Source: a virus. Taken from it: DNA of 50,892 nt. A program made the translations under genes and the position numbers. Under the pieces are notes generated by a model. That model did no database searches. It saw only the letters and a list, made by a program, of their open reading frames with translations, and was not told where the DNA came from. This document shows positions 17,372 to 34,507 of this stretch, in pieces (position 1 is the stretch's first letter; each line of letters begins with the position of its first letter). The DNA lies in the IMG/VR virus record IMGVR_UViG_3300025949_001129, positions 1 through 50,892 of that record; one strand, given 5' to 3'.

Positions 17372-17727
17372 GCGAGACCGCGCACGACACGATCGCGTTC
17401 CTGACCGCCGCGCGCGCCTACATGGTGGAGCAGCCGTGGCCGCCTGACTTCAAAGCCGACCCGCTCGCGCACGTCGGCATCACCGAATCGCTCGGGGCGT
17501 ACAAGCCGGGCTCGACCAACTTCATGAAGCAGTGGGACGCTCTTATCGAGGCGCTTCCGGAATCGTTCAGGTTCAAGACGCGATACGACCTGGAGCAGTT
17601 GAATGCGTTCGAGCACGATCCGGCGACGACGAAGGGCGACGTCCTGGCCCTGTTCGATCGCGCCATCGCGAACCTGGAAGCGACGCTGGTCGGCGAGCAA
17701 GCCTCGCTCTTCGAGGCCGCGCCATGA
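17368..17727 (+). CDS. Hypothetical helical protein between methyltransferases
   Basis: A 119-residue protein with ATGA overlaps on both sides. Predominantly helical, with NFMKQWDALIEALPESFRF and LFDRAIANLEATLVGEQASL. It ends with SLFEAAP, a terminal like SLFE at the end of the helicase-methylase. Could be a partner of the modification enzymes; no family recognised. Confidence 0.65.
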   Translation: MSETAHDTIAFLTAARAYMVEQPWPPDFKADPLAHVGITESLGAYKPGSTNFMKQWDALIEALPESFRFKTRYDLEQLNAFEHDPATTKGDVLALFDRAIANLEATLVGEQASLFEAAP

Positions 17728-17801
17728 TCGTATGCCTCGTGTGCGGGCGCCGGATCGGCACCAACGCCTACGACCCCAAGCCGGGGGAATGCGAATGCTG
17801 A
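17724..17801 (+). CDS. 25-residue zinc-knuckle peptide
   Basis: A very short ORF with CLVC and a terminal CEC, so four Cys that could bind one zinc. ATGA overlap upstream, and the next ATG lies inside its last codons. Similar minimal knuckles recur in actinophage genomes. Translation is plausible but unproven. Confidence 0.45.
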   Translation: MIVCLVCGRRIGTNAYDPKPGECEC

Positions 17802-20317
17802 CCGACTACAACGACTTCCTGGCCTCGAAGTCCGCGGCCGTCCGCGACCACGGCTACGCCGGCGACGTCGAGCTGATCGACGCCCTCAAGCCCCACCAAG
17901 CGGCTATCTGCCGGTGGGCGATCGCCGGCGGGAACCGCGCCATTTTCGCCGACTTCGGACTCGGCAAGACCATCATGCAGCTTCAGATCGCCGTGGCCCT
18001 CATCGCGGCCGAGGGTGGTTCGTCGCTGATCGTCTGCCCTCTCGGTGTTCGCCAGGAGTTTGCGCGCGACGCGCGGTCGCTCTTAGGCATCGAACTCCAC
18101 TACGTCCGGACGAACGAGGAGCATGCGGCGCTCGTCGCCGGCGGCGCGCAGTACTTCATCACCAACTACGAACGCGTGCGCGATGGCCAGCTCGACCCCA
18201 ACCGGTTCACGGTCGCGTCCCTGGACGAGGCGTCGATCCTGCGCTCGTTCGGCTCGAAGACCTACCAGCAGTTCCTGACGCTCTTCGACCAGGTGCGCTT
18301 CAAGTTCGTCGCGACCGCGACGCCGTCGCCCAACCGGTTTAAGGAGCTGATCCACTACGCCGGATTCCTGGGCGTCATGGATACCGGCCAGGCGCTGACG
18401 CGCTTCTTCGGTCGCAACTCCGAGAAGGCGGGCGACCTGACGCTCTACCCTCACAAGGAGAAAGAGTTCTGGCTCTGGCTCTCGACCTGGGCCGTCTTCC
18501 TGACGAAGCCCTCGGACCTCGGCTACTCGGACGAAGGCTACGATCTCCCGCCGTTGCGCGTGCACCAGCATCGCCTCGCAGCCGACCACACCACGGCAGG
18601 CGTCGACAGTTGGGGCCAGGGCAAGCTGCTCCGGGACGCGACCGTCAGCCTGAGCGACGCGTCGCGCGAGAAGCGCGACAGTCTCGAGGCGCGCATCGCC
18701 GAGGCGAAGGCGATCGTCGCGGCGGCGGACCCGGACGAGCACTGGCTGATCTGGCACGACCTCGAGGATGAGCGCCGCGCGATTGAGGCCGCCTTCCCCG
18801 ACGCCGTCACCGTCTACGGATCCCAGGACCTCGAAACGCGCGAGCAGGCCATCATCGACTTCTCGGACGGCAAGATCGGCAAGCTGGCCACGAAACCGAT
18901 CATCGCCGGCAGCGGGTGCAACTTCCAGCGCCACTGCGCGAAAGCGATCTTCCTCGGCGTCGGCTACAAGTTCAACGACTTCCTGCAGGCGATCAAGCGC
19001 ATCCACCGCTTCCTCCAAGAGCGGGCCGTCGATATTCACATCATCCACACCGAATCCGAGGACGCGATCTTCGCCGAACTGATGCGGAAGTGGAAGCAGC
19101 ACGACGAGTTGCAGGCGACCATGTCGGCGCTGATCCGGCAGTACGGCCTCGACGCCGAGCTGCGCCAGAGCGAGATGAAGCGCCAGATGGGCGTCGAGCG
19201 GAAGGTCGTCACGGGCAAGCGTTTCACGGCCGTCAATAACGACTGCGTCGACGAGACGCGCCGGATGGATTCGGACTCGGTCGACCTGGCCGTCACGAGC
19301 TGGCCGTTCTCGAACCAGTACGAGTACACGCCGACCTACAACGACTTCGGCCACAACGAAGGGGACGGTCCGTTCTTCGAGCAGATGGACTACCTCACGC
19401 CTGAGATCGTCCGGATCCTCAAGCCGGGCCGGATGTACTGCGTCCACACCAAGGACCGGATGGTGTTCGGCTCGGTCAGCGGCGACGGCATGTACACCGT
19501 CAGCGAGTTCTCCGATCGGTGCGTCACCCACCTAAAAAAGCACGGTCTGCGGTACATGGGCCGGATCACCGTCGTCACCGACGTCGTCCGGGAAAACAAT
19601 CAGACGTATCGCCTCGGCTGGTCCGAGCAGTGCAAGGACGGCACCAAGATGGGGTGCGGCATGCCGGAGTACATCCTGCTGTTCCGCAAGCTCCCGAGTG
19701 ACCGCGGCAACGCGTACGCCGACGATCCGGTCGTCCATACCAAGGCCGCCTACCCGCGCGCGCGGTGGCAGTTCGACGCGCATGGCTTCTGGCGCTCGAG
19801 CGGCGATCGACTCCTGACCCCGGCGGAAGCCAAGGGCCTCGACTTCGAGACCCTGCGGAAGATCTGGCATCGGTACAGCGGGACGCACATCTACAACTTC
19901 GAGGAGCACGTCAAGCTGGCCGAGGGCCTGGAGCAGGCCGGAGTGCTGCCGTCGAGCTTCATGCTCCTGGACCCGGTCTCGCATAGCGAGTTCGTCTGGG
20001 ACGACGTCGTGCGGATGCGGTCGCTCAACAGCCTGCAGAAGCGTCGCGCGGCCGAGCTCCATACCTGCCCGCTGCAGTTCGACATCGTCGACCGGTTGAT
20101 CGAGCGGTTCTCGAACGAGGGCGATCTCGTGCTCGACCCGTTCGGCGGCCTCGGTACGGTCGCGTACCGCGCGCTGCTCAAGAACCGGCGCGGCTTTACG
20201 ATCGAGCTTTCGCCCGAGTACCACGGCGACGCCGTCAGCTACCTCAAGGGCGCCGAGGCCGACGTGCCGATGCCGAGCCTCTTCGAGACGCTCGATGAAT
20301 CGAACGGTGCCGCGTGA
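17795..20317 (+). CDS. SNF2-like helicase fused to a DNA N4/N6 amino-methyltransferase
   Basis: An 840-residue fusion. Residues about 30-470 are a superfamily-2 helicase: FADFGLGKTIM (Walker A, about 51), LDEAS (motif II, about 144), ATATPSPNRF (motif III, about 174), QAIKRIHRF (motif VI, about 398). Residues about 485-840 are a beta-class amino-methyltransferase with SWPF in place of the usual SPPY (about 503) and LDPFGGLGTVAYRAL (SAM site, about 779). Substrate is DNA; base and site are unknown. Translocation coupled to methylation resembles single-chain restriction-modification enzymes, but no nuclease motif is visible, so modification or remodelling of phage DNA is the simplest reading. 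Starts inside the preceding tiny ORF. Confidence 0.93.
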   Translation: MLTDYNDFLASKSAAVRDHGYAGDVELIDALKPHQAAICRWAIAGGNRAIFADFGLGKTIMQLQIAVALIAAEGGSSLIVCPLGVRQEFARDARSLLGIELHYVRTNEEHAALVAGGAQYFITNYERVRDGQLDPNRFTVASLDEASILRSFGSKTYQQFLTLFDQVRFKFVATATPSPNRFKELIHYAGFLGVMDTGQALTRFFGRNSEKAGDLTLYPHKEKEFWLWLSTWAVFLTKPSDLGYSDEGYDLPPLRVHQHRLAADHTTAGVDSWGQGKLLRDATVSLSDASREKRDSLEARIAEAKAIVAAADPDEHWLIWHDLEDERRAIEAAFPDAVTVYGSQDLETREQAIIDFSDGKIGKLATKPIIAGSGCNFQRHCAKAIFLGVGYKFNDFLQAIKRIHRFLQERAVDIHIIHTESEDAIFAELMRKWKQHDELQATMSALIRQYGLDAELRQSEMKRQMGVERKVVTGKRFTAVNNDCVDETRRMDSDSVDLAVTSWPFSNQYEYTPTYNDFGHNEGDGPFFEQMDYLTPEIVRILKPGRMYCVHTKDRMVFGSVSGDGMYTVSEFSDRCVTHLKKHGLRYMGRITVVTDVVRENNQTYRLGWSEQCKDGTKMGCGMPEYILLFRKLPSDRGNAYADDPVVHTKAAYPRARWQFDAHGFWRSSGDRLLTPAEAKGLDFETLRKIWHRYSGTHIYNFEEHVKLAEGLEQAGVLPSSFMLLDPVSHSEFVWDDVVRMRSLNSLQKRRAAELHTCPLQFDIVDRLIERFSNEGDLVLDPFGGLGTVAYRALLKNRRGFTIELSPEYHGDAVSYLKGAEADVPMPSLFETLDESNGAA

Positions 20318-23739: not shown

Positions 23740-23769
23740 TTGACTAATAACCCAGGTATGGAGTATAAT
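23740..23769 (+). promoter_or_regulatory. Strong tRNA promoter
   Basis: TTGACT (23740-23745), 18 bases, TATAAT (23764-23769, consensus). The expected transcription start is about six bases before the tRNA. The surrounding A/T-rich stretch (23719-23769) is distinctive. Confidence 0.8.
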
Positions 23770-23782
23770 GGAATCAAGCCTC

Positions 23783-23855
23783 GGGGGGATAGCTCAACAG
23801 GCTAGAGCAGGTGGTTGATACCCATCCGAAGCGGGTTCGAGTCCCGCTCCCTCCA
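23783..23855 (+). tRNA. tRNA-Ile(GAT)
   Basis: A full cloverleaf of 73 bases can be drawn: acceptor GGGGGGA with TCCCTCC (one G-T pair), T8-A9, D-stem GCTC/GAGC with GG in the loop, anticodon stem GGTGG/CCATC around TTGATAC (anticodon GAT at 23817-23819), a four-base variable loop, and T-arm GCGGG-TTCGAGT-CCCGC. Discriminator is A and no CCA is encoded. It has its own promoter and is followed by a long GC hairpin. Its anticodon arm (23812-23825) is perfectly complementary to the 5' end of the downstream short RNA. Confidence 0.88.
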
Positions 23856-23861
23856 GGCCCA

Positions 23862-23894
23862 GGGCGGCCCGGCAAAGATCGAGCCGGGCCGCCC
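23862..23894 (+). terminator. Perfect 12-bp hairpin after the tRNA
   Basis: GGGCGGCCCGGC and GCCGGGCCGCCC pair perfectly around a nine-base loop. No T-run follows, so it may be a processing or pausing structure rather than a true intrinsic terminator. Confidence 0.5.
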
Positions 23895-23898
23895 GGGG

Positions 23899-23927
23899 GT
23901 GACAACGCTAGCGCGTCCAGGTATACT
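23899..23927 (+). promoter_or_regulatory. Promoter of the short anti-anticodon RNA
   Basis: GTGACA (23899-23904), exactly 17 bases, TATACT (23922-23927): five of six matches in each box. The expected start is at about 23932-23935, precisely where complementarity to the tRNA anticodon arm begins. Confidence 0.7.
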
Positions 23928-23931
23928 GGTC

Positions 23932-24000
23932 ATGGGTATCAACCAACTGACCAAGCCTGGACTGAGGCGCTCACCGCAAGGGTGGGCGCCTCGTCTTTTT
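23932..24000 (+). ncRNA. Short terminated RNA whose 5' end is antisense to the tRNA-Ile anticodon arm
   Basis: Between a good promoter and a rho-independent terminator lies an RNA of about 68 bases. Its first 14 bases (ATGGGTATCAACCA, 23932-23945) are the exact reverse complement of 23812-23825 in the tRNA. It could be a trans-acting anti-tRNA, part of a leader that attenuates the gene at 24016, or one arm of a long hairpin in a read-through transcript. The same bases open a 25-codon frame (23932-24009), a possible leader peptide. Function is inference. Confidence 0.55.
23964..24000 (+). terminator. Rho-independent terminator
   Basis: A 12-bp stem (GAGGCGCTCACC with its complement, one G-T pair) with a short GCAAG loop, followed by GTCTTTTT. 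It ends 15 bases before the start codon of the gene at 24016 and just before its Shine-Dalgarno, so it separates that gene from the upstream promoter. Confidence 0.85.
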
Positions 24001-24015: not shown

Positions 24016-24825
24016 ATGGAATCACCAAAACGCGGCCGCGGCCGGCCGGCACTACCGGAGTCCGAGCGGGCTCGGCCCCAGGGCTATTCCGTTCGCCCCG
24101 TGACCGACGAGCGTCTCGAAGCGCTGGCCTCTCGGTATGGCATCGCCAAGAGCGCGATGCTTGAGTCGCTGGTCGAGGACGCCTTCGTATCCCGCCGCTG
24201 GCCGGATGAGCCCCGCGAAGGATATGCGCCGGTCTCGGGAATGCGCGCCGAGGAGCTGATAGGCACTCCGCCCGCGTACACCATATGGAACCCGATCGTG
24301 CGCGAGATCGCGGGATATCGGTTCGCATGCGGCTGCGACATTCGTGGCGACGGATCGTCCTACGCCTGGGTCCCATGCGGCCATCATGTCGAGGCTGCAG
24401 TTTCGCAGACGGTCGACGGAAACGTGCGGCTCAAGCCCATACCGCCCGAGTTCCGAGGCGGATTCCTGCGATCGTTCCCGCTCCCGAACCGCGAGAAGTT
24501 GCAGCACGGGCTCGAGGCCTTCGAGCGGTTCTTCAAGGAGTCGTTTCCGGGCCGCCAGACCGAAGTCGAACACGATCGCGGCGACGGATATTGGTTCCTC
24601 GAGCGCCCGATCGCCGGCGAACCCTGGCATCCCGCGATGCACGTCTGGATCCAGGACGACGTGGTCGCCCTCGTCGGCGTCGACTGGCCGGGCGAGTTCC
24701 GCATACGGTCGTGGCCCGCTTTCGTCGAGCGCCTCGCGGAGCGCGAGCCGCTCACGGCGGTCTACTTGGACGAAGCTGGCACGGTCCGCGTTTCAGGGCA
24801 GAAGCCCGAACCGGTGCGGGCATAG
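24016..24825 (+). CDS. Hypothetical protein behind an attenuator-like leader
   Basis: A 269-residue protein with an excellent ribosome site (GGAGGTAAGG). It begins with an AT-hook-like KRGRGRPALP and a short helical domain (TDERLEALASRYGIAKSAML) similar to ribbon-helix-helix regulators. Then comes a Cys/His segment (FACGCDIRG, VPCGHH) and a C-terminal alpha/beta region. The preceding intrinsic terminator implies regulation by read-through. No family recognised; a DNA-binding regulator is the best guess from the N-terminus. Confidence 0.75.
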   Translation: MESPKRGRGRPALPESERARPQGYSVRPVTDERLEALASRYGIAKSAMLESLVEDAFVSRRWPDEPREGYAPVSGMRAEELIGTPPAYTIWNPIVREIAGYRFACGCDIRGDGSSYAWVPCGHHVEAAVSQTVDGNVRLKPIPPEFRGGFLRSFPLPNREKLQHGLEAFERFFKESFPGRQTEVEHDRGDGYWFLERPIAGEPWHPAMHVWIQDDVVALVGVDWPGEFRIRSWPAFVERLAEREPLTAVYLDEAGTVRVSGQKPEPVRA

Positions 24826-27038: not shown

Positions 27039-27477
27039 GCGTCGCAGCGGACCCGAACCCGGCAAGCCGTACAAGCTCGACGCGACTACCCGGAAGCGCA
27101 TCATCCAGGTTCTCGAAGTCGGTGGAACCTGGGGAATGGCCGCCGCCGCCGGACACGTCTCGGTTGATTCGGTGAAACGCTGGCGGGACGACGTTGCGGA
27201 CTTTGCGGAAGAATGCGCGCGCGCGAGAGATTCTGGCGCCGCAAAGCTGGTCGCGAAGGTCCGGGCCGCGGCGGAGGCCGGCGACTGGCGCGCGGCGTCC
27301 TGGCTGCTCGAGCGGACGAGCCCGAACGAGTACGGCCGACGCGTGCAGATCGCGGGACCTAACGGCGGCCCCGTGCCGATCGAGGGCGAGCTGCGCGTCG
27401 CGGACGGCGTGCGGGCGAACTCCGCCGCTTCTGACGTGATGCACCTGGCGATCGCCAAGGCGGCCGGCACGTCGTGA
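26797..27477 (+). CDS. Terminase small subunit-like protein (5' end uncertain)
   Basis: A 226-residue reading from GTG 26797. The C-terminal 135 residues carry the expected HTH-like part (KRIIQVLEVGGTWGMAAAAG, VSVDSVKRWRDDVADFAEEC) and ASWLLERTSPNEYGRR, typical of small terminase subunits that recognise pac/cos DNA. The first about 80 residues overlap the gene at 26790 in the +1 frame and are Ala/Pro/Lys-rich and disordered. No start codon exists in this frame between 26797 and 27100, so either the overlap is translated or a +1 shift from the upstream gene, for instance at the AAAA run near 27023, supplies the N-terminus. Confidence 0.72.
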   Translation: MARSRSAPAGAATPPKKARGSQAPADASSTASPPSAASTRAKTGTATPTLSPAKGGRPKTSQPKPPSSRGSGTAAKGAGPKRRSGPEPGKPYKLDATTRKRIIQVLEVGGTWGMAAAAGHVSVDSVKRWRDDVADFAEECARARDSGAAKLVAKVRAAAEAGDWRAASWLLERTSPNEYGRRVQIAGPNGGPVPIEGELRVADGVRANSAASDVMHLAIAKAAGTS

Positions 27478-29072
27478 GCGCGGTCGACGAAGCGGCCCCT
27501 GAGGAGCTGCAGCGCGAGCTGAACGAGGACGTCATCATGGCGGCATCTTCGCCGGCGGGCTTCGCGTTCGTGGCCACGCGCGACGATGCGATGCCGTACA
27601 TCCCCGACAAGTTCCACCTGGAGATCGCCAAGGGGCTGGTCGACATCGAGCAGGGCCGCCTCGAGCTGCTGGTGATCCAGTGCCCGGTCCAGCACGGGAA
27701 GTCGACGACCGCGAGCGTCTGGGGCCAGGCGTGGGAGTTCGGCGTCCATCCGAACTGGCGCGTGATCGGCGCGACGTACAACACCGACTTCGCCGAGGAC
27801 AACCTCGGCAAGCCTACGCGCGACATCCTCGAGCGCCACGGCCCGGCGTTCTTCGGCGTGCATGTCGACCCGACGTCGCGCTCGATGAAGCGCTGGGGCA
27901 CGACCGCCGGCGGGCGTATGGTCGCGGTCGGCGTCGACAAGCCCGTCACGGGTCGACCGGCCGACAAGATCCTGATCGACGACCCGTACCCCGGTCTCGC
28001 GGAGGCCATGAGCCGCAACTTCCGCGCCGAGATCGAGGATTGGTTCAAGGCGAACGTCATCTCGCGGCGCGCGGCCAAGCTGCGCCTGGTCGTCATCATG
28101 TCCCGCTGGAACGAGGACGACTTCGTGGCGTTCGTCCTCCGGATGGCTGAGGAGGGCGGCTGGAAGTACAAGGTGCTCGACTTCCCCGCGATCGCCATCT
28201 GCCCGATCGAGGGCTGCAACGCGCCGAAGTTGACCGTCGTCGACGGTGCGGGCCCGGGCGAGCTCGAGCTGGTCATCGAGCCCTGCGATCACGGCGTGCG
28301 CGACTCGTTAGGTCGTCTGCCGGGCGAGGCGCTCTGGCCGCGCGTGCGCCCGATCGAGTTCCTCAAGAAGCAGTACATCGCGATGGGCGGCCCGCTGTTC
28401 GACTCGCTCTACCAGGGCCGCCCGCGCAAGGCCGGCGGCACGATCTTCAAGCAGGAGTGGTATCGGTACTTCACCTTGACCGACGGAATCGTGACGCTCC
28501 GGAACAACGCCGGCGTCGGCATCCAGCAGTACCGCGTGTCCGAGTGCATCTGTTTCCAGATCGTCGACCTCGCGTCGGGCGACACGCAGACGTTACGTTC
28601 GGGTGTCACGCGCGCGAAGAAGGCCGACTACTTCGTGGTCGGGACGTTCCTGCTGTGCCCCCGGAACGAGCTGCTCGTCTGGAACATCTTCCGCGACAAC
28701 CGGATCGACGGAACGGCGCAGCTCCCGCTGCTCGGGCAGTTGAAGTCGAAGTACGGATCCGGCCGCATCGGCATCGAGGCCGTGGCGTACCAATGGACGG
28801 CCGTGCAGCAGGCGGTCGCGGCGGGTCTGCCGGCGGTGCCGATCGTGCGCGGCAACGAGAGCAAAGAGACGCGCGCGTGGGCGATTGCCGCGCGGTACGA
28901 GACCGGCCAGGTCTACCACCTCCAGGGCGCGCCGTGGATCGACGCGCTCGAGAGCGAGCTGCTGGCGTTCCCGCGCGGCGCGAACGACGACCAGGTGGAC
29001 GTGCTCAGCGACGCCGGCGCAGTGGTGGCGGAACGCCTTGGAACGAGCAAGCCCAATGGAGTTCGCGTATGA
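27474..29072 (+). CDS. terL: Terminase large subunit
   Basis: A 532-residue packaging motor and nuclease. ATPase: CPVQHGKST (Walker A, about 70), ILIDDP (Walker B, about 167), followed by a VVIMSRWNEDDF coupling region. Nuclease: QIVDLASGDTQT (first Asp, about 365), GIEAVAYQ (Glu, about 434) and DDQVDVLSDA (about 505). Length is normal. GTG 27474 overlaps the small subunit stop (GTGA). Confidence 0.96.
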   Translation: MSAVDEAAPEELQRELNEDVIMAASSPAGFAFVATRDDAMPYIPDKFHLEIAKGLVDIEQGRLELLVIQCPVQHGKSTTASVWGQAWEFGVHPNWRVIGATYNTDFAEDNLGKPTRDILERHGPAFFGVHVDPTSRSMKRWGTTAGGRMVAVGVDKPVTGRPADKILIDDPYPGLAEAMSRNFRAEIEDWFKANVISRRAAKLRLVVIMSRWNEDDFVAFVLRMAEEGGWKYKVLDFPAIAICPIEGCNAPKLTVVDGAGPGELELVIEPCDHGVRDSLGRLPGEALWPRVRPIEFLKKQYIAMGGPLFDSLYQGRPRKAGGTIFKQEWYRYFTLTDGIVTLRNNAGVGIQQYRVSECICFQIVDLASGDTQTLRSGVTRAKKADYFVVGTFLLCPRNELLVWNIFRDNRIDGTAQLPLLGQLKSKYGSGRIGIEAVAYQWTAVQQAVAAGLPAVPIVRGNESKETRAWAIAARYETGQVYHLQGAPWIDALESELLAFPRGANDDQVDVLSDAGAVVAERLGTSKPNGVRV

Positions 29073-30450: not shown

Positions 30451-30574
30451 GAACATGGCCTACGGCCCCTGGCCCGAGCCGCGCATCAAGCTCGCGAACC
30501 GGTCGCGCGTCGATCGCCCGAAGCGCCGGAAGAAGCGGGACATGGCCAAGCGCTCGCGGCGGGCGAACCGATGA
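30443..30574 (+). CDS. Tiny Arg-rich protein
   Basis: A 43-residue reading (GTG 30443 or ATG 30455) ending RRKKRDMAKRSRRANR, almost identical to the end of the preceding protein, so the two tails probably duplicated. Unknown function. Confidence 0.45.
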   Translation: MGENMAYGPWPEPRIKLANRSRVDRPKRRKKRDMAKRSRRANR

Positions 30575-30699
30575 GGCTCCTCGGCTGGGCGCTGGCGCCG
30601 TTCGTCCTTCTCGTCGCCGTCCCGATCGCGCTCGGCGCGCTGATGTTCGAGACGGCGCGCAACGGCCAAACGGTCGAGAACCGGCAGCTCGGCGCGTGA
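30571..30699 (+). CDS. Small membrane protein
   Basis: A 42-residue protein with one strong hydrophobic helix (LGWALAPFVLLVAVPIALGA) and a polar tail. ATGA and GTGA overlaps. Unknown function. Confidence 0.5.
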   Translation: MRLLGWALAPFVLLVAVPIALGALMFETARNGQTVENRQLGA

Positions 30700-31376
30700 G
30701 CAATCTTCGCCTCGTCTTGTGGTCCGGCGGTTGCGACTCCACGCTGATGCTCTACGACGCCCTGACGTCGCAGAAGACCTGGATTATCGCCCCGGACAAG
30801 AACGACCCGAAGCGCGTTGACACGCGGACCGAGGTCCGGCAGATCAGCATCGTCGAGCCGACCGTTCCGTGCAACGCCCCGCAGGCGCGCGCGCGGCGCC
30901 GGCTGCTTACCGAGTTCAAACGCCGCGGTATCCCGTTCCGGCCGACGATCGAAGTCATCACGTCCCGCGAGCACGATCAGCCAAAGCGCCACGAGAACGG
31001 CGGGTCGATCCAGACGCAGATGTGGGTCGGGACCGCGACGCCGTACCTGTGCGACTCCGAGGATCTGCTGGTCGGCTGGCACGACGGCGAGTTCGACAAC
31101 GTCGAGCACGTCACGTCCGCGTTCGACGCCCTCCAGCGCATCAACGGCGGCAAGACAGGCAAGCTGCAGTTCCCGCTCCAGCGGGTGATGTACGCGACCG
31201 TGATCGCGCGACTCCAGGCCCTCGACCTCCTGGACCTGTGCTGGTGGTGCGAAGGCGGCAAGCATCCGGCACCGGCGGCGTCCGAGCCGTGCGGCACGTG
31301 CAACAAGTGCATCGCGCACGCGACCGCGCTCTGGCAGCTCCGAAAGTACGGCGCGAAGCGGATGGCGGAGTTCTGA
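30696..31376 (+). CDS. QueC-like PP-loop enzyme
   Basis: A 226-residue protein. LWSGGCDSTLML at residues 8-19 is a PP-loop ATP-pyrophosphatase motif, and CWWCEGG...CGTCNKC near the end is a four-Cys zinc site as in QueC (7-cyano-7-deazaguanine synthase). Phage QueC relatives make 7-deazaguanine that replaces guanine in DNA and blocks restriction. The rest of such a pathway (FolE, QueD, QueE, DpdA) is absent from this window, so it may use host precursors or do another adenylation chemistry. GTG overlap with the previous stop. Confidence 0.8.
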   Translation: MSNLRLVLWSGGCDSTLMLYDALTSQKTWIIAPDKNDPKRVDTRTEVRQISIVEPTVPCNAPQARARRRLLTEFKRRGIPFRPTIEVITSREHDQPKRHENGGSIQTQMWVGTATPYLCDSEDLLVGWHDGEFDNVEHVTSAFDALQRINGGKTGKLQFPLQRVMYATVIARLQALDLLDLCWWCEGGKHPAPAASEPCGTCNKCIAHATALWQLRKYGAKRMAEF

Positions 31377-32467: not shown

Positions 32468-34507
32468 GTGTCAGAAGCGCTGGACCCCCGCGAGATCGAT
32501 GGCCTCGGAGCCGACCTGCCGGCATTCGCGCGCCGCATCGCGGGCGAACAGTACGAAGCCGACCCGAAAGCCTACGCGGTCGACACCGATAACGATCCGG
32601 TCAAGGCGTTCTGCGAGAGCGTCGACGCGGGCGCGAGCATCACGCTCAATCTGGCCTGCCGCGACGGCCGACGCGAGATCGTGGAGCTGGACCGCCAGGA
32701 GTCGCACGCCTGGGTTCGCGGGACGCTCAGCGATCGCACGGAGTTCGCCAACCGGAAGATCTGCGAGCGCCGGTTCGACGTCGCGGCGCGCGCGGCCGAG
32801 CGTCTCCAGGAGCGCGGCCTACCGCCCACGTCGGAGAACCTGCGGCCGGACGAAGAAGCGTACCTCAACGAGTTCGGCGCGATCGTCGAGCGCCGCGCGC
32901 CGCTCAAGAAGGGCGGATATCGGCGTCTGAAGCCGACCTTCAGCGAAGCGTTCGTCGGAGCGATGTCGGACACGCGCTTGCGCGAGGACTTCTTCGACGG
33001 CATCGGCGACGGCGGCGCCTCGGCCTACTTCACCGCGCCGACCCAGCGCGAGTACTTGCCCGTCGGCGGCCCGGCCGGCCAGCAGTTGCAGATCAGCGAC
33101 GTCTGGGACGAGCAGGCGAAGGTGTACTATGCCTACACGCATGACACCGTCGCGCGCGACGCCGTCGAGATGCTGGCCGACTTCATCCTGGGCCGCGGCG
33201 TGCAGATCGTCGCCGCCGACGAGAAGGTCCAGAAGGTCATCGACGAGTTCGTCGCTCGCGAGAAGTTCGACCAGCGCGCGCACCAGATGACGTCGACCCT
33301 GATCCAGGCGGGCGAGCTGTTCGTGCGCAAGATGCCGATCGGGGGAGGGCGGCTGAAGGTCCGGACGCTGCCGGCCGAGACGATCTGGGAGATCGTGACG
33401 GACGCCGAGGACGCGCTCGAGGTCTTCTGGTACGTGCAGCGGTTCCAGACGCGAACGGTGCTCTTCGCGGACAACAAGCCGGAGGCCGCGACCCGGTGGG
33501 TCGAGCGGACGATCCTCGCCGGCGACATGCTGCACCCGAAGATCAACGCGCGCGAGAGCGATGTGCGCGGGCGGTCGGACATGTATCCGGCGCTCGGGTG
33601 GATGAAGCGGCTGCGCGACTACTTCGACGCGGTCGTCCAGAAAGAGTACTCGGCGGCGGCCTACCAGTGGCACCTGAAGGTCAAGGGCGGCGCGGGCGAC
33701 GTCTCGGCGATCGCGGCCGCGGCCGTGCCTGGCGGCCAGGTCCCGCCCGGATCGACGCTCGTCACGAACGACCAGGTCGACCAGCAGGCGATGGGGAGCG
33801 GCGTGCGCGCGGTCTCGGGCAACGGCTCGACCTACGAGGCGCTGCTCAACACGATCGCGCTGGCCTTCGGCCTGACCAAAGAGTACTTCGGCGCGTCGTC
33901 GCACACGAACCGCGCGAGCGCGATCGTCGCGACCGAGCCGGCTGCCAAGCGCTTCGAGCACCGCCAGGACGTCCTCGGCGACTTCTTCCGGGAGATCTTC
34001 CAGGCGGTCGTCGACGAAGCGGCCGGCGCGGGTCTGCTCGACGGCGCCGAGAGTCTGGACTTCAAGATCATCTTCCCGACGATCGTCAAGGCGGACGCGA
34101 CGTCGCGCATGTCGCTGCTGAACCGGGCCGAGTCGATGGGCTACATCTCGAAGCAGACGGCAGCCGAGAACGCAGCGTCGGAGCTGGAGCTCGAGGACTA
34201 CGACTTCGAGGACGAGCAGCAGAAGATCAAGGACGAGACCGGAACGGACGGCCGCAACGTCATCAGCCGCGATATGGCCCAGGTCTTCAAGGGCGGCCCG
34301 ACGTCGGGCGAGCCCGCGTGGGATCCGGGCGAGGTGCCGAACCCGGCAGCCGGCGGCGGCGGCACCGATCCGGCCGCGCCGCAGGACAACGCTGGGCCGT
34401 CTTCCGCGACCGGCGCGAAGAAAGGCCGCGACGAGCTCGGCCGCAAGTCGATGGAGCGCGCGATCGCCGAGGCCCGGAAATCGGGCGGGATCGTCATCAT
34501 CCCATGA
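32468..34507 (+). CDS. Portal protein
   Basis: A 679-residue portal, long for the family. The first about 200 residues are an unusual acidic/Arg-rich extension; the portal core from about 210 shows the expected DGVEMLADFILGRG-like start (DAVEMLADFILGRGVQIVAA), LRDYFDAVVQKEYSAAAYQW (stem and clip) and AFGLTKEYFGASSHTNRASA (crown region). C-terminus is Gly/Pro-rich and helical. GTG 32468 lacks a Shine-Dalgarno. It is the entry ring for DNA and nucleates head assembly. Confidence 0.9.
   Translation: MSEALDPREIDGLGADLPAFARRIAGEQYEADPKAYAVDTDNDPVKAFCESVDAGASITLNLACRDGRREIVELDRQESHAWVRGTLSDRTEFANRKICERRFDVAARAAERLQERGLPPTSENLRPDEEAYLNEFGAIVERRAPLKKGGYRRLKPTFSEAFVGAMSDTRLREDFFDGIGDGGASAYFTAPTQREYLPVGGPAGQQLQISDVWDEQAKVYYAYTHDTVARDAVEMLADFILGRGVQIVAADEKVQKVIDEFVAREKFDQRAHQMTSTLIQAGELFVRKMPIGGGRLKVRTLPAETIWEIVTDAEDALEVFWYVQRFQTRTVLFADNKPEAATRWVERTILAGDMLHPKINARESDVRGRSDMYPALGWMKRLRDYFDAVVQKEYSAAAYQWHLKVKGGAGDVSAIAAAAVPGGQVPPGSTLVTNDQVDQQAMGSGVRAVSGNGSTYEALLNTIALAFGLTKEYFGASSHTNRASAIVATEPAAKRFEHRQDVLGDFFREIFQAVVDEAAGAGLLDGAESLDFKIIFPTIVKADATSRMSLLNRAESMGYISKQTAAENAASELELEDYDFEDEQQKIKDETGTDGRNVISRDMAQVFKGGPTSGEPAWDPGEVPNPAAGGGGTDPAAPQDNAGPSSATGAKKGRDELGRKSMERAIAEARKSGGIVIIP

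Follow-up and report, generated by a model that had tools for sequence, protein, structure and literature searches.

We propose that a dedicated antisense small RNA controls a tRNA encoded by the same phage, a reading to which we assign a probability of about 0.5 on the basis of sequence features and predicted pairing. The window, that is, the whole stretch of 50,892 nucleotides that was analysed, is a temperate phage region with a GC content of 67%, and it carries a tRNA gene with the anticodon GAU followed by a second putative unit, whose predicted 5′ end is complementary to the anticodon and D arms of the tRNA. The complementarity and its statistical strength, the promoter and terminator signals and the identity elements of the acceptor are all present in the DNA itself. 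The features are located as follows:

1-1230, minus strand: tyrosine integrase
23740-23769, plus strand: promoter of the tRNA, sigma-70-type, TTGACT-N18-TATAAT, with 11 of 12 consensus matches
23783-23855, plus strand: tRNA gene, anticodon GAU (Ile), CCA not encoded, called by ARAGORN and Rfam
23798-23825, plus strand: stretch of the tRNA complementary to the small RNA, from the D arm to the 3′ side of the anticodon stem, perfect in 23812-23825
23857-23899, plus strand: GC hairpin just 3′ of the tRNA, without a U-tract (−37.8 kcal/mol, z −4.6)
23899-23927, plus strand: promoter of the small RNA, GTGACA-N17-TATACT, with 10 of 12 consensus matches
23915-23962, plus strand: nested dyad over the −10 box and the 14-mer (GTCCAGG..TGGTCA..loop GTATCAA..TGACCA..CCTGGAC; −24.1 kcal/mol, z −4.3)
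23932-23959, plus strand: antisense segment, predicted 5′ end of the small RNA, placed by its complementarity to the tRNA
23932-23998, plus strand: predicted antisense small RNA of about 65 nt, placed by the positions of promoter and terminator
23963-24000, plus strand: intrinsic terminator, TGAGGCGCTCACCGCAAGGGTGGGCGCCTCG TCTTTTT, with the hairpin at 23963-23993 and then TCTTTTT
24016-24825, plus strand: downstream gene, 269 aa, N-terminus weakly RHH/RelB-like (NCBIfam E 0.073)
27474-29072: TerL
32468-34507: portal

The two termini of the window, positions 1 and 50892, are the stop codons of complete genes, those of the integrase and the tape measure, respectively. With gene boundaries at both of its ends, the window is probably a provirus that was cut out of a longer contig. 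The att sites and the host flank are absent from the window. Isoleucine is mostly encoded by ATC in this phage (373 of 402 Ile codons in 19 genes, 93%). Particularly, in TerL, ATC aligns with Ile at 16 of 29 sites of the protein of a relative and with Ala only once, an alignment that rules out the recoding of ATC as alanine. Elsewhere in the window, the product of a gene at 30570-31373 shows a weak match to QueC (E 4e-4), under the curated cut-off, and could possibly take part in a phage 7-deazaguanine modification of DNA or tRNA, while a single ORF at 17603-20317 fuses a SNF2/DEAD-type helicase to an N6/N4 DNA methylase.

The sequence TGGTTGATACCCAT in the anticodon arm of the tRNA (23812-23825) has its exact reverse complement at 23932-23945, as an earlier, sequence-only reading of this DNA had reported. 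Within 2 mismatches, neither the 14-mer nor its complement recurs elsewhere in the window. That reading stopped at 14 nt and missed the extension through the D arm: stretches 23798-23825 and 23932-23959 are complementary over 28 nt at 86%, covering both the D and the anticodon arms, and three of the four mismatches of the duplex lie in its D-arm part. This is the top inverted repeat of the whole window among those with arms within 300 nt of each other. In a gapped local alignment, the match spans nucleotides ~11-44 of the tRNA, with CTCA/TGAG as an additional block, and reaches a score of 41, compared with a maximum of 37 in 3,000 dinucleotide shuffles. Since tRNAs are structured and often clustered, we used the flanks of real tRNAs as a control, taking 200 nt on each side of 1,662 tRNAs from 138 phage, plasmid and viral loci (3,296 flanks). 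The window tRNA tops them all, the next score being 36 (mean 19.5, sd 3.8). An exact match of greater length, 16 nt, occurs once, in another locus of this set (L127), where it lies in the spacer separating a tRNA gene for Ala(TGC) from one for Val(TAC). An exact 14-mer by itself would therefore count for less than the full match of 28 nt. No copy of the T arm or the acceptor was seen by eye upstream of 23932, which speaks against an inverted copy of the full tRNA.

The antisense segment is flanked by signals for transcription and termination. The promoter described in the sequence-only reading is indeed present, as a consensus match only, and it ends 4 nt upstream of the segment. Three promoter-like sites occur in 8 kb, against 0.7 expected, and two of them are the promoters of the tRNA and of the small RNA; the former sits in an AT-rich island amid GC-rich DNA. 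From the usual distance between a −10 box and the start of transcription, the small RNA would begin at ~23932-23935, with the match starting within about 2 nt of that point. The 14-mer had been placed at the 5′ end of the RNA, which fits this predicted start, although the start itself is derived from the −10 spacing. Taken alone, the segment 23932-23962 is weakly structured (−3.6 kcal/mol, z +0.8). Next to it lies the strongest terminator of the region (fold z −5.9), equally as anticipated, whose self-contained hairpin has 12 bp and a predicted energy of −26.4 kcal/mol. The apical loop of the dyad at 23915-23962, GTATCAA, is the complement of the whole anticodon loop; the dyad is possibly an operator or, in a read-through RNA, a hairpin presenting the anti-anticodon sequence in its loop. 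Two other candidates were discarded for this segment. A leaderless ORF of 25 aa from the ATG at 23932 is unlikely, as the ATG lies only 4 nt past the −10 box and the ORF crosses the terminator, and an archaeal-type C/D guide RNA, for which the CUGA after the 14-mer was considered, was rejected because box C was not seen by eye.

Predicted pairing points to the tRNA as the partner of the small RNA. Cofolding of the two yields a gain of −17.8 kcal/mol, while the best of 998 control stretches reaches −10.1. When the first 31 nt of the small RNA were paired with 1,643 distinct tRNAs, the window tRNA was the best partner at −39.5, followed by another at −32.4 (mean −19.7, sd 3.8). It is also the best sense-strand site of the window, where all other sites are more than 9 kcal/mol weaker, save the opposite strand of the small RNA gene itself. 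A 17-nt arm of the pair has 10 matches in 84,980 species genomes, a set that may not include the host, and none of them is in a tRNA. Given that this arm matches no tRNA in the species genomes and that the phage's own tRNA is the best partner, the latter is most likely the target. Of the roles proposed earlier, the first agrees best with these values, namely that of an anti-tRNA silencing or tuning the tRNA of the phage.

The tRNA gene itself was called by both ARAGORN and Rfam (62.4 bits, gathering threshold 29), in agreement with the earlier assignment of 23783-23855 to a tRNA-Ile(GAT). It folds into a canonical cloverleaf with the conserved tertiary bases T8, R15, G18G19, A21, U33 and TTCRANY, and the 12-bp, GC-rich and very stable hairpin at 23857-23899 is the probable 3′ end or processing structure of its transcript. 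The isoleucine label is correct for the anticodon GAU; what it overlooked is an alanine-type acceptor stem, GGGGGGA/UCCCUCC, with G3 (23785) opposite U70 (23852) and with A73 (23855). The pair G3:U70 is the major alanine determinant (PMC9976931), and it has been described as sufficient for AlaRS recognition and as able to misdirect non-alanine tRNAs to alanine (PMC11415595). PMC9976931 lists five bacterial alanine determinants, and the tRNA has all but one of them: G2-C71, G3:U70, G4-C69 and A73 are present. The missing one is G20, a minor determinant, in whose place we find C20 (D loop A14 A15 C16 A17 G18 G19 C20 T20a A21). The strong isoleucine determinants of that list, anticodon GAU, A37 and A73, are all present, and the minor ones of E. 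coli, C4-G69, C29-G41 and G16, are absent, the tRNA having G4-C69, U29-A41 and C16 (PMC9976931).

In our survey, G3:U70 was found in 58 of 64 tRNA-Ala but in only 23 of 1,598 non-Ala tRNAs. The full end G1G2G3/U70C71C72/A73 occurs among these 1,598 in just two cases, the window tRNA and one tRNA of a Klebsiella plasmid. All 34 of the Chloroflexota tRNA-Ile matches examined have G3:C70. Searches with acceptor patterns, in which the positive controls worked, revealed no further GGGG...U70 tRNA-Ile(GAU) in 597 sampled genomes of two phyla, nor in viral contigs. A second viral tRNA-Ile(GAT) with G3:U70 (L173) has the acceptor ATGGTGA/TCACTAT and, as cut here, the discriminator T. The Klebsiella plasmid (L068, NZ_CP031797.1; 4,269-bp) carries two odd tRNA-like genes (540-625 and 797-872). 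One was called as tRNA-Ile(aat) and has a long variable arm of the Ser/Leu type, and the other combines the Arg anticodon TCT with an alanine-type end (GGGG..CTCC-A73-CCA, G3:U70); bodies charged irrespective of the anticodon, joined to foreign anticodons, would make both of them mistranslating tRNAs.

By its identity elements the window tRNA looks chimeric, with an isoleucine anticodon on an alanine-type acceptor. It may be charged with alanine and would then cause Ile-to-Ala mistranslation unless restrained; alternatively, charging with isoleucine may win, with GAU, A37 and A73 dominating. Because ATC is the main isoleucine codon of the phage and aligns with Ile, charging with alanine would be harmful, and an alanine-type acceptor on a tRNA with an isoleucine anticodon would therefore provide a reason for an antisense brake.

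In the mechanism that we favour, two adjacent units would be transcribed, the tRNA(GAU) and, from its own promoter and the predicted start site, an RNA of ~65 nt made up of a 5′ pairing tail of ~28 nt and a 3′ terminator hairpin. The first contact would be made by GUAUCAA of the small RNA docking onto the anticodon loop UUGAUAC. The anticodon loop is a U-turn loop, a kind that is favoured in fast antisense contacts. From there the pairing would zip through the anticodon and D arms, and the resulting duplex in the cell would unfold the tRNA or mask its anticodon, leaving the tRNA uncharged, unused or removed as a duplex. The purpose of the system would most likely be to restrain a risky tRNA. 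The balance would shift if one of the promoters were switched off or if the small RNA decayed, and such a switch could use the dyad over the small RNA promoter as its operator. A narrower form of this proposal, which we advance tentatively and consider rather unlikely as it stands, is an RNA-only toxin-antitoxin pair, in which the chimeric tRNA would act as the toxin by bringing alanine to AUC and the antisense RNA would act as the antitoxin by covering the anticodon and D arms; alanine charging, toxicity and a benefit to the phage are all presumed in it from the sequence. In favour of antisense control, the match sets in where transcription of a unit with its own promoter and terminator is predicted to start, as it does in antisense RNAs that use a 5′ seed. 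Against it, tRNAs are modified and abundant, and an antisense RNA would need to act before the tRNA has finished folding.

The main dull alternative is a non-functional accident, namely that the segment is a decaying partial inverted copy of the tRNA, limited to the D and anticodon arms and produced by template switching or an old insertion. We regard this as unlikely. It would agree with the fact that only nucleotides ~11-44 of the tRNA are represented, part of them decayed, and the pair is known from a single locus. No relative carrying both the tRNA and the antisense segment was found in the viral contigs or genomes searched: the paired pattern (14+14 and 10+10 core) matched 0 viral contigs, the 16-mer alone matched 40 of them and 0 in a tRNA, a search with a TerL profile gave no match in GTDB genomes and, among viral sequences, none closer than those already known, and the TerL relative at 62% identity (L002) has no tRNA. 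What speaks against an accident is that the boundary of the copy coincides with the predicted transcription start, which has a promoter before it and the strongest terminator of the region after it, that the best-preserved part is precisely the anticodon arm at the 5′ end of the RNA, and that none of the 1,661 other tRNAs scored so high. Next in rank, and less probable again, the small RNA could set the dose, in lysogeny versus lytic growth, of an ordinary isoleucine tRNA that supplements or replaces the tRNA-Ile of the host, be it for tRNA-dependent lysogeny or for evasion of anticodon nucleases. Both phenomena have been published (PMC10865867 and PMC10264068, the latter describing nuclease-evading changes in the anticodon loop), the phage possesses the tyrosine integrase at 1-1230, and the anticodon, A37 and A73 suit IleRS. 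Such tuning leaves the alanine-type acceptor stem unexplained, however, and the att sites and the host are outside the window.

The remaining explanations are far less probable. Gene 24016 is reached only by read-through of the small RNA terminator, and the sequence-only reading had suggested a tRNA-sensing attenuator for it, that is, a T-box-like leader whose 5′ part, from 23932, would bind the tRNA and govern termination ahead of the gene. The terminator and a good ribosome-binding site (GGAGG) do lie between the antisense segment and the gene, but this idea was not borne out: the 12-bp hairpin forms by itself and no alternative antiterminator freed by tRNA binding is predicted, the Rfam scan matched no family besides tRNA, and a pairing of 14-28 nt far exceeds a codon-anticodon contact, so we consider a leader of this kind very improbable. 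The protein encoded by 24016 has no homologues in the searched sets and no Pfam or PADLOC match, its PHROG and NCBIfam matches are weak and to other families, and its predicted structure (mean pLDDT 45.6) is too poor for use. Equally doubtful is the role of a decoy for a host anticodon nuclease, also raised in the sequence-only reading, or of a shield that would protect the anticodon arm from it. The small RNA spans the whole anticodon loop and phage tRNAs that evade nucleases are documented (PMC10264068), yet the antisense hairpin bears the complement of the loop rather than the loop, so it is no mimic, and no other tRNA-Ile tested pairs as well with the small RNA as the phage tRNA does. Finally, the element could act at the level of DNA, either as a recombinase-invertible promoter segment of 106 bp between 14-bp inverted repeats or as an operator at 23915-23962, the match to the tRNA being secondary. 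Such a role would suit the position of the inverted repeats on either side of the promoter, the overlap of the dyad with the −10 box and the weakly suggested RHH-like N-terminus of 24016. Nevertheless, inversion would destroy the tRNA, the complementarity runs 14 nt further outward into the D arm and the sole integrase identified is 23 kb away, all of which leaves little room for this interpretation.

Antisense control of the tRNA by the small RNA would be a new arrangement as far as the open-access literature that we searched goes, which gave no example of a bacterial or phage RNA dedicated to controlling or silencing a tRNA by pairing with it. If true, it would mean that the activity of a tRNA can be set by antisense pairing and that phages gain a safe way to carry a mistranslating tRNA. 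It would also provide a simple way of testing why phages have tRNAs whose codons are already read well by their hosts.

Antisense RNAs paired with structured targets are familiar from plasmids and phages, as in RNA I/RNA II of ColE1, CopA/CopT of R1 and the CI RNA of P4. The pair described here shares with them a short RNA with its own promoter and terminator and a loop-to-loop complementarity to a folded target encoded nearby. It differs in that the target is a canonical tRNA and in that the RNA lies downstream on the same strand, which implies pairing in trans, imperfect beyond 14 nt. A T-box riboswitch would be expected to look different, as Rfam gave no match except tRNA and no antiterminator appeared in the predicted folds, and type III toxin-antitoxin systems differ in that no ToxN-like protein was found downstream, where the product of 24016 is encoded. 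The case of tRNA-dependent lysogeny (PMC10865867) likewise involves a temperate phage with a tyrosine integrase and a tRNA gene with its own promoter, but an antisense RNA is not mentioned there. Closer in the nature of the tRNA is the mistranslating tRNA-ProX of Streptomyces and Kitasatospora (PMC11415595), which also joins the body and acceptor of one isotype to the anticodon of another; here the combination is an alanine-type acceptor with an isoleucine anticodon, it is phage-borne, no dedicated synthetase was seen and an antisense RNA adjoins it. In CreTA (PMC8501985), where a rare tRNA is sequestered by CreT and CreA directs CRISPR-Cas to a promoter, an RNA toxin acting on translation is restrained by an adjoining, partly complementary small RNA. 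The pair proposed here follows the same scheme, except that the putative toxin would be the tRNA itself, to which the brake would bind directly by base pairing. By analogy, then, the pair resembles the plasmid antisense and target pairs in its working, tRNA-ProX in its tRNA and CreTA in its logic.
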